Shown here one piece after another: positions 21,794 to 25,762 of a stretch of DNA of 32,049 nt. Where the stretch lies: contig CALMVT010000345.1 in assembly GCA_937873175.1 (NCBI GenBank), positions 39,340 through 71,388 on the forward strand, given 5' to 3'. The stretch comes from an uncultured Acetobacteraceae bacterium (GTDB lineage Bacteria > Pseudomonadota > Alphaproteobacteria > Acetobacterales > Acetobacteraceae). Every line of letters begins with the position of its first letter. The stretch's first letter is position 1. Made by a program: the position numbers and the translations under genes. A model generated the notes under the pieces. That model was not told the origin of the DNA. It did no database searches and was given only the letters and a program-made list of their open reading frames with translations.

Positions 21794-22180
21794 TCACTGC
21801 GCCGGCATCACCACGGGCGCCCCCTTGTCCTTGACGAAAAAGGCGAGGAACTTGGCCGGCTCCGTGCTGCTCGCGTTGCGGCCGACCAAGTGGATGTCGT
21901 CCGGCGCTTCGTAGAAGGTTTGGCCGCGATGCAGCGTGACCGGCTCCGTGCCCTTCGCCTGCATGATGACCGAGCCTTCGAGCACATAAACGAACACATA
22001 CGCGCCGTGGCGGTGGATGGGGTCTGCCGCGCCGGGCGCATACTCCACCACCATCATTGAGCCTTCCTTGCCGGCGATGCTGGTCAGGTCGCGCGAAAGC
22101 AGCGGTGTCACCTTCGTCGTTTGCGCGGCACCCGCCCCGGCGATGGAGAGCAACGCGCCGACCAACAGCAATCGCTTCAT
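21794..22180 (-). CDS. secreted single-domain cupin protein
   Basis: This is a periplasmic cupin of 128 residues. The signal peptide MKRLLLVGALLSIAGAGAAQ is followed by a beta-barrel domain with metal-type motif 1 HRHGAYVFVYVLEGSV and a second motif ending GQTFYEAPDDIH. A C-terminal strand pair AKFLAFFVKDKG completes the fold. ATG 22180 is chosen because the signal peptide begins there. The function is unknown; such cupins are often annotated only by domain. It converges on the GFA gene. Confidence 0.88.
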   Translation of the reverse strand: MKRLLLVGALLSIAGAGAAQTTKVTPLLSRDLTSIAGKEGSMMVVEYAPGAADPIHRHGAYVFVYVLEGSVIMQAKGTEPVTLHRGQTFYEAPDDIHLVGRNASSTEPAKFLAFFVKDKGAPVVMPAQ

Positions 22181-22424
22181 CGGAACGAACCTTTGCTTTG
22201 GGCAAGGGGTTTGCGGCCCGGACAAGACGGCGATCCCGCCCCGACGTGGCCGCCGCAGTCTCAGTCAGGGCTGGCCGTCCGTCAACGGATCACCGCGGGG
22301 CTGGACATGGGCGGAGCTGGCCCGTCCGGCGCGGCAATGCGTGACGGGATGATGCAGTCAGGCAACGATCCGGGCCGGGGGTGGCGGCGTTCTCCAGGCT
22401 GGTATGGCATCACAGGAAACAAGA

Positions 22425-22739
22425 ATGAGCGAAACGAACGAGAGCGTGCCGGGCATGGCAGAAACGGAGAAGCTGAAGACCCAGGCGGAAACCGGGGGCG
22501 AGCGGTCGATGGCGCGGCCGGGCAACGCATCCGGCGCGGGCGGCGTGCAGCCGGGCGCCGGCGCGCCGGAAACGGGCATGCTTGGCGGCGGGATCGGCTC
22601 GGCCGGCCTGCGCGGCGGCTCGGGGGAAGGGACGGGCGCCACGTCCGGCATGTCGGGCGGGGAAACCAATGAAAGCATGCCCGGCGGCGGCGCCACGGGC
22701 GACCGGGAACAGCCCGACACCGTGCCGACCGACCGCTGA
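22425..22739 (+). CDS. small Gly-rich disordered protein with internal repeat
   Basis: This encodes 104 residues dominated by Gly, Ala, Ser, Thr and Glu, with no Cys, His, Trp, Tyr or Phe and no hydrophobic segment, so it is probably intrinsically disordered and cytosolic. The N-terminal ETNESVPGM recurs near the C-terminus as ETNESMPGG. I do not recognise a domain. AGGA lies seven bases before ATG 22425, which argues for this start over ATG 22404. It is followed after 27 bases by a similar small gene in the same direction; both contain a GTGATS stretch. Composition is similar to desiccation- or stress-type hydrophilins, but that is only analogy. Confidence 0.6.
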   Translation: MSETNESVPGMAETEKLKTQAETGGERSMARPGNASGAGGVQPGAGAPETGMLGGGIGSAGLRGGSGEGTGATSGMSGGETNESMPGGGATGDREQPDTVPTDR

Positions 22740-22766
22740 TCCAGCCAATCATCAGGGAACGCTGAC

Positions 22767-23006
22767 ATGAGCAACACGACGCAGCCCTCCTCCCGCAAGG
22801 ACGGGTTCGGGACCGAGGGCATCGGCGAGGACGGCGACGGCAGCATGGGCCAGGCCGGCAGCAGCGGAGGCGGCACCGGGGCGACCTCGGCCGCGGGTCG
22901 CGGCGCGGCAAAGTCGCAGGGCGCGACCGGCAAGGAAAACGGCAGCATCGGTCGGCAGAACCAGGCCAACAAGCAGGGCCTGGGCGGCGACGGGCCGCAG
23001 GACTGA
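22767..23006 (+). CDS. small hydrophilic Gly/Ser-rich protein
   Basis: This encodes 79 residues, strongly hydrophilic, with only one aromatic residue (Phe in KDGFGTEG) and no Cys, His or Trp. It shares GTGATS and Gly-rich linkers with the preceding gene and ends GLGGDGPQD. A weak ribosome-binding site AGGGA precedes the ATG by about nine bases. No known domain. The tandem position and shared composition suggest a paired function or duplication. Confidence 0.58.
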   Translation: MSNTTQPSSRKDGFGTEGIGEDGDGSMGQAGSSGGGTGATSAAGRGAAKSQGATGKENGSIGRQNQANKQGLGGDGPQD

Positions 23007-23010
23007 TGAT

Positions 23011-23040
23011 GCCCGGCGCGGGCCTGGACGACGCCAGGCC
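23011..23040. terminator. hairpin between convergent small genes
   Basis: GGCCTGG at 23021-23027 pairs perfectly with CCAGGCC at 23034-23040 around a six-base loop. An adjacent GCCCG/CGGGC hairpin occupies 23011-23023. No T-run follows on either strand, so it could be a weak or factor-dependent terminator for the convergent genes, or chance in GC-rich DNA. Confidence 0.35.
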
Positions 23041-23139
23041 GCGTTGCGGGCCGCATCGCCCGCGAGGATGAAAACCGAACCGGCCCGACCGCACTCCTCC
23101 GTTACGAGACGGCGGCGCTGCAGCCGGGCCGGCGCGCGG

Positions 23140-23385
23140 CTACTTGTTGGTGCGGCCCACCCTGTTCGGGTTGACGCCGCCGCCCTTAGCGCCGTCGTTC
23201 ATCACGTCGCCCTCCGCCGTGTTGTCGGCTTCAATGGTTTCCGGGTCGGCGCCGGTGGCCGCGAACGCGCCCTTGGACGCGCCGATGCCCGGGTTGCGCT
23301 GGAGGTCGCTGGGCGGCCGCGGCGTGTCGGCGCCGAGATCGTCCGGACCCTCCGGCGGGCGCTTCGGGTGCTTGGATGAGGTCAT
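23140..23385 (-). CDS. small hydrophilic protein ending NPNRVGRTNK
   Basis: This encodes 81 residues, acidic and Pro/Gly/Asp-rich, without Cys, Trp or Tyr. The order HPKRPPEGPDDL, NPGIGASKGAF, DPETIEADNTAEGDVMND and NPNRVGRTNK resembles, by memory, short uncharacterised proteins common in Acetobacteraceae and Methylobacterium relatives. No function is known. AGGAGA lies six bases before the ATG. It is downstream of the SulP gene in the same direction after 175 bases in which I see no gene. Confidence 0.65.
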   Translation of the reverse strand: MTSSKHPKRPPEGPDDLGADTPRPPSDLQRNPGIGASKGAFAATGADPETIEADNTAEGDVMNDGAKGGGVNPNRVGRTNK

Positions 23386-23560
23386 GCGGGTTCTCCTATA
23401 GGCATGGCCCGGGCCGGCAGCGCGGGCAGGAAGGGCGGCTGCCTCTACGACGGGCCGCCCGTGCCGTTTCCAACGCCGCCACCCCGGCGAAGTGCCGCGC
23501 CGAACGCACACGATTTGCGGACGGCCCGCCGCGCCGCCGCCCCATCCCAATCCGGGCGCG

Positions 23561-25015
23561 TCAGCCCACGAGGATGCGCCGTCCCTCCTCCTTGCGCGCC
23601 GCCAGTTGCTGCAGCGTGCTGGCGAAGGTGTGGTCGATGTGCCACAGGCCGCGCGTGCGGATGCGGACATCACGGTCGGCCGGCGCACCCTCCACCGCCG
23701 ACAGCAGTTGCGGCAGCCGCAGGAACGTGGCGGTGCCCGCCAAGCGCAGCTCAGTGGCCGCGCCTGTGTCGAACGTGCGGACGCGGAACCCCGGACGACG
23801 CAGGGGCCACACCGATTCCACGACCGACAAGGCGAGGCCGGCCAGCACGCCGGTGAGCAAATCGGTCGTGACCACGCCCACGAACGTCGCCGCCCAAATC
23901 GCCGCCGGCATCCGCCCGTGATGGCGCAGCAGGTCCACCACGTGATGCACGCCGATCAGCCGCCACCCCGTCACCACCAGCACCCCGGCCAGCGCAGCGG
24001 TCGGCACCAGGCGCAACAGGCCCGGCAGAAGCGCCACGAACACCAGGATGATGAGGCCGTGCAGGATCGTGGACAGGCGCGTCACCGCACCCGCCTGCAC
24101 GTTGGCCGAGCTGCGCACGATCACCCCGGTCATCGGGATGCCGCCCAACAGGCCGCTCAGCCCGTTGCCGACCCCCTGCGCGAACAATTCCCGGTCGTAG
24201 TTCGTCCGTACCCGGTCCTGCATGCGGTCCACCGCGGACGCGGACAGCAAGCTTTCCGCGCTGGCGACAAAGGCCAGCGCAACGGCCGTCAGCATCAGGC
24301 CCGGCTGCAGCATCTGGCTGAACGCTTCGCCGTCCGGCAGGGCGACCGCGTCCCACAGCCGATCCGGCACACTCACATGCAGCACCGGCAGCGCCAGCGC
24401 CGCCGCCAACGCGGTGCCCGCGCCCACGCCCAGCAGCGCCCCCGGAACCAGGCGGAGCGCGGCCGGGCGCAGCTTCTCCCAGCCGACCATGACGACAATC
24501 GTGACCAATCCGACCAGAAGCGCCGTCTCGCCGCCGGCGCCGTCCAGGGGCAGCAGCCCAAGGAAAGCGCCGGGCGCGGCCAGCAGGTTATCCAAGCCGC
24601 CCGCCTGGGGCTTGTTGTCCACCAGGACCTGCAACTGCCCGGCGACGATCAGCACGCCGATGCCGGCCAGCATGCCATGCACCACGGCCGGGGAGATGGC
24701 CCTGAACCACCCGCCCAGCCGCAGCGCGCCGGCCAGGCATTGCAGCCCGCCGGCCAGCAGCAAGATCGGACCCAAGGCGCCAAGGCCGTAATCTCCGACG
24801 ATCTCGAAGACCATGACGGCAAGCCCGGCCGCCGGGCCGCTCACCTGCAAGGGCGAGCCGGACAGCAGCCCGACCACGACCCCGCCGATGATGCCGGTAA
24901 GCAGCCCCCGCTCGGGCGGCACGCCGGAGGCGATGGCGATGCCCATGCACAAGGGCATCGCCACCAGGAAGACGACGAAGGACGCCGAAACGTCGCGTAG
25001 GAGCCAACTGCGCAC
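23561..25015 (-). CDS. SulP-family anion (sulfate/bicarbonate) transporter
   Basis: This is an inner-membrane transporter with about 10-12 hydrophobic segments, 484 residues. SulP features are the N-terminal SFVVFLVAMPLCMGIAIASGVPPERGLLTGIIGGVVVGLLSGSPLQVSGPAAGL, the mid-protein VASAESLLSASAVDRM, and GNGLSGLLGGIPMTGVIVRSSANVQAGA. The C-terminal roughly 70 residues look like a short or degenerate STAS domain. The preceding gene is a carbonic anhydrase, one base-pair step away, so bicarbonate is a more likely substrate than sulfate, by inference. GTG 25015 has GGAG at eight bases; GTG 25021 (TAGTG overlap) is the alternative. Confidence 0.92.
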   Translation of the reverse strand: MRSWLLRDVSASFVVFLVAMPLCMGIAIASGVPPERGLLTGIIGGVVVGLLSGSPLQVSGPAAGLAVMVFEIVGDYGLGALGPILLLAGGLQCLAGALRLGGWFRAISPAVVHGMLAGIGVLIVAGQLQVLVDNKPQAGGLDNLLAAPGAFLGLLPLDGAGGETALLVGLVTIVVMVGWEKLRPAALRLVPGALLGVGAGTALAAALALPVLHVSVPDRLWDAVALPDGEAFSQMLQPGLMLTAVALAFVASAESLLSASAVDRMQDRVRTNYDRELFAQGVGNGLSGLLGGIPMTGVIVRSSANVQAGAVTRLSTILHGLIILVFVALLPGLLRLVPTAALAGVLVVTGWRLIGVHHVVDLLRHHGRMPAAIWAATFVGVVTTDLLTGVLAGLALSVVESVWPLRRPGFRVRTFDTGAATELRLAGTATFLRLPQLLSAVEGAPADRDVRIRTRGLWHIDHTFASTLQQLAARKEEGRRILVG

Positions 25016-25020
25016 GGGCA

Positions 25021-25749
25021 CTACTCCGCAGCCACGGGCAGTGCCGGGTTGGTCGCGCCGCCGCGGGGCGCCACGGCTACCGGGGGCGTGTCGTCGTCCA
25101 TCAGCGCGAACAGGCCGGTGTCGCCGTCGTAGGCCAGCACCGAGCCGTGCTCCAGCTCGAACAGCCAGCCGTGCAGCGTCAGCTTGCCGGCCGCGATCCC
25201 CGCGGCGACGGACGGGTGCGTGCGCAGGTGGTTGATCTGCACCACCACATTCTCCTTGGCCAGGGCGCGGTGGCGGGCGTCCGGCGGCGCGTCGCAATGC
25301 AGGGTTTGCTCCACGATGCGCTGGGCGGCCTGGCTGTGGTGGAGCCAGGCGGCGACGTTCGGCATCGTCGCGAGCTTCTCCGGATGCAGCAGCGCCCCCA
25401 TGGCGCCGCAGTCGGAATGGCCGCACACGATGATGTCCCGCACGCCGAGGGCCAGCACGGCATACTCGATCACCGAGGACACGCCGCCGTTTGTCCGTCC
25501 GAAAGGCGGCACGATGTTGCCGGCGTTGCGGCACACGAACAGCTCGCCGGGGCCGCATTGCGTGATCATCTCGGGGATGACCCGGCTGTCGGCGCAGGAG
25601 ATCATAAGCGCCTTGGGCTTCTGGCCGTCATGGACCAGCTTGCGGTAAAGGCTCCGCTCCCGCGGGTAAACCTCGCCCTGGAAACGGGCGACGCCGCGCG
25701 CCATGTCGCGAAAGGGGTTGGGGGTCTCAGGGTCGTGTTGGGTTGTCAT
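25021..25749 (-). CDS. beta-class carbonic anhydrase
   Basis: This enzyme interconverts CO2 and bicarbonate with a zinc centre. It has 242 residues. The zinc site is complete: Cys-x-Asp-x-Arg in SCADSRVIPEM and His-x2-Cys in CGHSDCGAM. The conserved RNAGNIVPP and a C-terminal HGWLFELEHGSVLAYD are present. AAGGAG lies nine bases before ATG 25749 and only three before ATG 25755, so 25749 is preferred. It leads a two-gene unit with SulP. Confidence 0.95.
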   Translation of the reverse strand: MTTQHDPETPNPFRDMARGVARFQGEVYPRERSLYRKLVHDGQKPKALMISCADSRVIPEMITQCGPGELFVCRNAGNIVPPFGRTNGGVSSVIEYAVLALGVRDIIVCGHSDCGAMGALLHPEKLATMPNVAAWLHHSQAAQRIVEQTLHCDAPPDARHRALAKENVVVQINHLRTHPSVAAGIAAGKLTLHGWLFELEHGSVLAYDGDTGLFALMDDDTPPVAVAPRGGATNPALPVAAE

Positions 25750-25762
25750 CAGCATGGGCTCC

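Follow-up and report, generated by a model that had tools for sequence, protein, structure and literature searches.

To our knowledge, many general-stress genes of the Alphaproteobacteria are without a known function. Two described systems are close to the locus studied here. Hydrophilins are defined, in PMC4190154, by more than 6% glycine, a GRAVY below −1 and a mean hydrophilicity above 1, and the hydrophilins named there have mean hydrophilicities of −0.3 to 1. The promoter motif of sigma-EcfG1 of Rhizobium etli is GGAAC-N16-CGTT, as given in PMC3892343. The window, a stretch of 32,049 nucleotides from an uncultured Acetobacteraceae bacterium, contains three tiny ORFs, here called P1, P2 and P3, that were compared with these systems. 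Our main reading, to which we assign a probability of about 0.6, is that P3 is a small, disordered, hydrophilin-like general-stress protein and that P1 and P2 are lineage-specific, glycine-rich companions. The new finding is the association of the P3 family with an EcfG-type promoter.

P1 (22425..22739, + strand, 104 aa) and P2 (22767..23006, + strand, 79 aa) are in tandem, and P3 (23140..23385, − strand, 81 aa) is convergent to them, as the preliminary description had stated. An in-frame ATG upstream of P1 at 22404 would extend it from 104 to 111 aa. P3 is preceded by a Shine-Dalgarno-like AGGAG (23393..23397, − strand), read from the sequence 7 nt before its start. The flanking genes, which lie outside the set, are indeed a cupin (21794..22225, − strand, Cupin_2 match with E 9.4e-13) and a SulP transporter (23561..25033, − strand, Sulfate_transp match with E 2.7e-55). 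The SulP gene and a gene for a carbonic anhydrase (Pro_CA) overlap, together spanning 23561-25755 of the window, and we take this gene pair to suggest bicarbonate transport. The reported absence of cysteine and near absence of aromatic residues were both borne out, as the three proteins have no Cys and 0, 1 and 1 F/W/Y residues, respectively. All three are hydrophilic and rich in glycine (26.0%, 27.8% and 14.8%). The duplicated ETNES-x-PG motif described for P1 is real, with SETNESVPGM and GETNESMPGG differing mostly synonymously in the codons of their common part. The first copy reads EANESVPGM in a same-genus relative, so conservation of the full motif is not strict. None of P1, P2 and P3 matched a Pfam or NCBIfam model above its curated cut-off, and the sole match up to E = 1 was a 15-residue NCBIfam match of P3 (E 0.14).

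P3 belongs to a conserved, unnamed alphaproteobacterial family (MTSSKHPK ... NPGIG.SKG ... NT.EGDV.ND ... GRTNK). A contig scan yielded 24 loci with relatives confirmed by tblastn, 8 in Acetobacteraceae, 4 in Paracoccus, 3 in Brevundimonas/Caulobacterales and 9 in Sinorhizobium/Ensifer. In profile searches scoring up to 14 first-look candidates per genome, P3 was found in 37/397 sampled same-family genomes, representing 13/102 genera, and in 2/385 genomes of a class sample, one of which is the window's own. It was unmatched in the 97%-complete same-genus genome G017 with all candidates scored. The distribution of the family is patchy. The Sinorhizobium meliloti version matches 54 plasmid records, and among the matches listed (30 of 54) the gene either bears the name 'hypothetical protein' or is unannotated. 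A phage origin of P3 was considered and rejected, as none of 50,697 phage records matched it at E 0.01. Alignment of 20 sequences, one from the window and 19 from the 24 loci, revealed 15 invariant positions, including PGI, T-x-x-GD and GR-x-N. The median dN/dS was 0.16 over 130 pairs with 70-97% identity and dS <1.5, indicating purifying selection; for the window's P3 against relatives L003, L058 and L074 it was 0.45, 0.16 and 0.34, respectively. Judged by this conservation, P3 is clearly a gene and certainly more than a chance frame. With homologues in several alphaproteobacterial orders and no Pfam/NCBIfam model, P3 also deserves the label of uncharacterised family given to it earlier. No published description of the family was found among the best-ranked literature, and the regulon tables of S. 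meliloti and R. etli may list the gene unnamed.

The motif GGAAC-N16/17-[CG]GTT lies within 150 nt of the start in 36/47 distinct P3 homologues, with a spacer of 16 nt in 28 and 17 nt in 8. The 47 homologues remain from the 57 loci in which a pattern search recognised P3 once three window copies and seven duplicates are removed; three loci missed by the pattern (L051, L077 and L081) and seven P3 hits of the profile search stand outside this count. L081 and L099 have GGAAC-N16-AGTT, which the strict pattern excludes. As controls, six scrambled −35 words and the reversed motif were each found in 0/47, as were spacers of 8-15 and 18-20 nt, while spacers of 20-22 and 23-26 nt were found in 1/47 and 3/47, respectively. 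The background rate of the motif was 0.17% per stretch in dinucleotide shuffles and 2.1% in random 150-nt stretches from the same loci, true sites included. In the 24 loci, the motif precedes only 4/329 mechanically called ORFs that are 200 aa long or longer. The 11 homologues that have no strict site include the four Paracoccus loci, in which the motif instead precedes the first gene of the cluster, and L003, L010, L058, L062 and L068, which have a site with one mismatch. Even with one mismatch allowed, L008 and L009 show no site. Because the sequences are related, the 36 sites are not 36 independent events, yet they span several orders and different surrounding DNA. These computations show that the EcfG-type promoter association holds at the level of the P3 family, with regulon membership read from promoter sequence only. 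For P3, the word stress in the preliminary description thus gains an EcfG general-stress promoter on most of the homologues examined.

A perfect EcfG site is lacking upstream of P3 in the window itself. The best candidate is GGCAC-N16-CGTT (23472..23496, − strand), which has one mismatch and lies 111 nt upstream of the start, further than in most homologues. Among random 150-nt stretches drawn from the window, 3.0% hold a site with up to one mismatch and 0.7% hold GGCAC..CGTT, the site itself included. A weight matrix derived from the 36 sites gave the candidate 5.3 bits vs a median of 19.2 for the set, and 4.7% of random stretches reach its score. The same one-base variant, GGCAC-N16/17-CGTT, is present in L003 and L058 at −85 and −56; the L003 site scored 3.4, a value reached by 12% of random stretches. 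The agreement of the three relatives, which are not independent and share a variant picked post hoc, suggests a real but shifted site in the window. The perfect motif occurs 75 times in the window's genome vs 139 for the reversed control, and this lack of enrichment counts against a simple promoter reading.

Genes for the regulators of the EcfG response are present in the same genome. PhyR, two ECF-type sigma genes, NepR and a HisKA_2/HWE kinase are encoded side by side. PhyR_sigma2 and Response_reg domains share a single 248-aa ORF, NepR is over its cut-off, and both sigma ORFs have sigma-70 regions 2 and 4. The two sigma genes lie in a row between phyR and nepR and are followed by the kinase gene (L130 626-3182, contig C434 of the window's genome, G000). 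From its position, one of them is presumably EcfG proper. Upstream of nepR stands GAAAC-N16-GGTT in place of a GGAAC element, so the local EcfG consensus may differ. A GAAAC-N16-CGTA nearer to P3 resembles the nepR site and may be an alternative promoter, which we note as a lead only.

In other lineages, P3 often has tiny neighbors of two further families, here called Q1 and Q2. Both lie beside P3 in 13/24 loci, made up of the 9 from Sinorhizobium/Ensifer and the 4 from Paracoccus; neither was matched in the other 11 (8 Acetobacteraceae and 3 Brevundimonas/Caulobacterales) or by P3 in Rhizobium bangladeshense (L081). In Sinorhizobium, P3 is followed by Q2 (80 aa) and then Q1 (72 aa), both tiny and hydrophilic. 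This P3-Q2-Q1 order is found in all 9 Sinorhizobium/Ensifer loci and in L050. In S. meliloti, the P3 homologue lies in the interval from a DUF2267 gene to thyA. All 4 Paracoccus loci have the order Q1-P3-Q2, Paracoccus sp. MA has P3-Q2, and in Agrobacterium fabrum Q1 is divergent from P3-Q2. Q1 and Q2 have rigid motifs, LSNRD in Q1 and G-x-NQES (QQ..TSNA.KDF..NQES) in Q2. Neither they nor the further P3 sequences that were tried matched a Pfam or NCBIfam model.

Q1 was unmatched in the window's genome and was found in 1/397 same-family genomes (G168) with up to 13 first-look candidates scored per genome. This Q1 match (L145, G168:C5:14452-14667) is in a genome that also holds the weakest-scoring listed P3, on another contig. 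On Rhizobium etli p42f (L098 2444-2653), treZ and malQ, genes of trehalose and glycogen metabolism, are closely followed by a Q1 gene with GGAAC-N16-TGTT upstream. In other Acetobacteraceae, a composition filter gave no small hydrophilic gene accompanying P3 among ten loci, nine of them distinct (L142-L144, L003-L007, L009 and L010, with L143 on the same contig as L003). This filter is not exhaustive, since neither P1 nor the P3 homologues of L143, L003 and L007 passed it.

P1 and P2 were considered as distant forms of Q1 and Q2 and rejected, as no tblastn match at E 1e-2 joined them in the loci compared. They also had no tblastn match in the P3 loci of relatives and no convincing relative outside the genus. 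EcfG-like sites are absent upstream of both: 29% of random 150-nt stretches score at least as high as the best candidate of P1, and 23% at least as high as that of P2. The idea of one common family of three, as the locus had been described, therefore does not hold. The three ORFs could still be one ordinary hydrophilin set that is induced together by stress, since they are alike in composition and P3 is one of three tiny hydrophilic genes that lie together in Sinorhizobium, Paracoccus and Agrobacterium. We consider this unlikely, because P1 and P2 are on the strand opposite to P3, lack both an EcfG-like site and a tblastn match to the Q1/Q2 loci, and have no match in other Acetobacteraceae P3 loci, most of which span 1.5 kb per side. 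A bolder proposal is that P3, Q1 and Q2 form an unrecognised 'disordered-protein module' of the general stress response, in which tiny proteins with short, rigid motifs would work jointly as a stress-induced condensate or hibernation factor encoded by a movable cluster that is also carried on plasmids, with P1 and P2 as lineage-specific replacements of Q1 and Q2. We regard it as very doubtful.

Whether P1 and P2 are genes at all was judged by codon usage and by relatives. The codon-usage scores of P1 and P2 were 0.29 and 0.26, exceeding all 37 wrong-frame open stretches of at least 75 codons (maximum 0.09). Five of six trusted genes scored 0.33-0.50 and the sixth only 0.06, so the scale separates imperfectly. 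GC3 is 0.88 for P1 and 0.94 for P2, and purine-rich, ribosome-binding-like stretches precede both starts. The first 53 codons of P1 recur in the same-genus genome G163 with 92% aa identity, at which point the contig ends. Codon changes between the two are 4 synonymous and 4 nonsynonymous. No convincing relative of P2 was found among 200 same-family genomes. Further P1 and P2 matches in other genomes, at E 1e-4 to 1e-2, were weak and lay over glycine-rich stretches, many within longer open frames and some across stops; except for G163, they were taken as compositional and set aside. The search for homologues proposed earlier thus succeeded for P3 in several alphaproteobacterial orders, gave one partial same-genus relative for P1, and failed to give a convincing one for P2. 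In G163, contig C313 ends inside P1 and contig C580 begins inside SulP; in G108, contig C117 begins 76 bases before the match to the SulP end. Because these contigs end or start in or beside the region, the missing P2 and P3 of G163 and G108 are uninformative.

The region 22200-23600 has no sigma-70 promoter-like site and one terminator-like site, with 1.0 given by shuffles. P1 and P2 could be chance open frames in high-GC DNA, leaving P3 as the sole gene. The absence of a known promoter, the lack of a convincing P2 homologue, the single partial same-genus homologue of P1, the equal numbers of nonsynonymous and synonymous changes, which give no clear sign of purifying selection, and the trusted gene at 0.06 all fit such an origin. 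The codon scores above every wrong-frame stretch, the high GC3 and the purine-rich stretches ahead of both starts speak against it, and we think it improbable. P1 and P2 look like real genes, seen so far only here and, for P1, in a sister species. They are best read as lineage-specific glycine-rich companions of P3, whatever role they may have.

Conserved synteny with the cupin and SulP genes was considered as a functional link and rejected, as neither gene was matched in any P3 locus but the window's own; both were also unmatched in L142-L144. G163 lacks window stretch 21832-22331, in which the greater part of the cupin gene lies, and matches the sequence on either side at 91-92%. The conserved synteny in Acetobacteraceae that was to be looked for is thus missing from the other P3 loci and, for the cupin, from the P1 locus of G163.

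AlphaFold2 modeling of P3 with 20 sequences gave a mean pLDDT of 55.8 and a pTM of 0.18. This result is consistent with an intrinsically disordered protein, and the shallow alignment could also lower the confidence. The earlier 'probably disordered' agrees with this prediction for P3. The name stress hydrophilins fared less evenly. Both the glycine content and the GRAVY of P2 (27.8%, −1.08) and P3 (14.8%, −1.09) are in the hydrophilin range, whereas the GRAVY of P1 (26.0% Gly, −0.76) is not, and the mean Hopp-Woods hydrophilicities of P1, P2 and P3 (0.37, 0.42 and 0.55) are all below 1. Because the hydrophilin definition is only partly matched, P3 is called hydrophilin-like rather than a hydrophilin. 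It is plausible that P3 works like one.

The following sequence of events is proposed for P3. PhyR would sequester the anti-sigma factor NepR, and sigma-EcfG would then transcribe P3 from a promoter of the GGAAC-N16/17-CGTT type, in the window probably from the variant GGCAC-N16-CGTT. The disordered P3 would most likely protect or organise cellular components in stasis, drying or osmotic stress, and its fixed motifs (PGI, T-x-x-GD and GR-x-N) may serve a specific contact. We infer both the induction of P3 and its protective action.

The same motifs could mean that P3 is a stress-regulated linear-motif adaptor, which binds and regulates one partner, such as a sigma/anti-sigma component, the ribosome, a chaperone or a nucleoid protein, rather than a bulk protectant. 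Rigid motifs are unnecessary for composition-driven hydrophilins, but P3 has 15 invariant positions, and Q1 and Q2 likewise have rigid motifs. The genomic neighbors of P3 vary between the lineages compared and no candidate partner was found, which makes an adaptor the less probable choice, although a possible one. A hydrophilin-like general-stress protein remains our preferred reading of P3. The family is conserved and defined by motifs, and it occurs in the genetically tractable S. meliloti; its promoter prediction is precise, and two companion families recur. It makes the role of small EcfG targets without a known function directly testable.

Three known systems resemble this locus in part. 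Differences from hydrophilins are the hydrophilicity of 0.37-0.55, below 1, the GRAVY of −0.76 in P1, and the rigid conserved motifs of P3, which lie outside the criteria given above from PMC4190154; glycine above 6%, the absence of Cys, the single aromatic residue at most and the predicted disorder of P3 are shared with them. The Sinorhizobium, Paracoccus and Agrobacterium clusters differ in gene order and strand, and their Q1 and Q2 have no tblastn homology to P1 and P2, but those of Sinorhizobium and Paracoccus have in common with the window a P3 homologue (45-54% identity) within a group of tiny hydrophilic genes. As for the sigma-EcfG/RpoE2 regulon, the window's own P3 copy has a one-base promoter variant and its membership is judged from sequence alone. 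The likeness to this regulon consists of the promoter on 36/47 homologues and of the genes for PhyR, ECF sigma and NepR that the window's genome carries.
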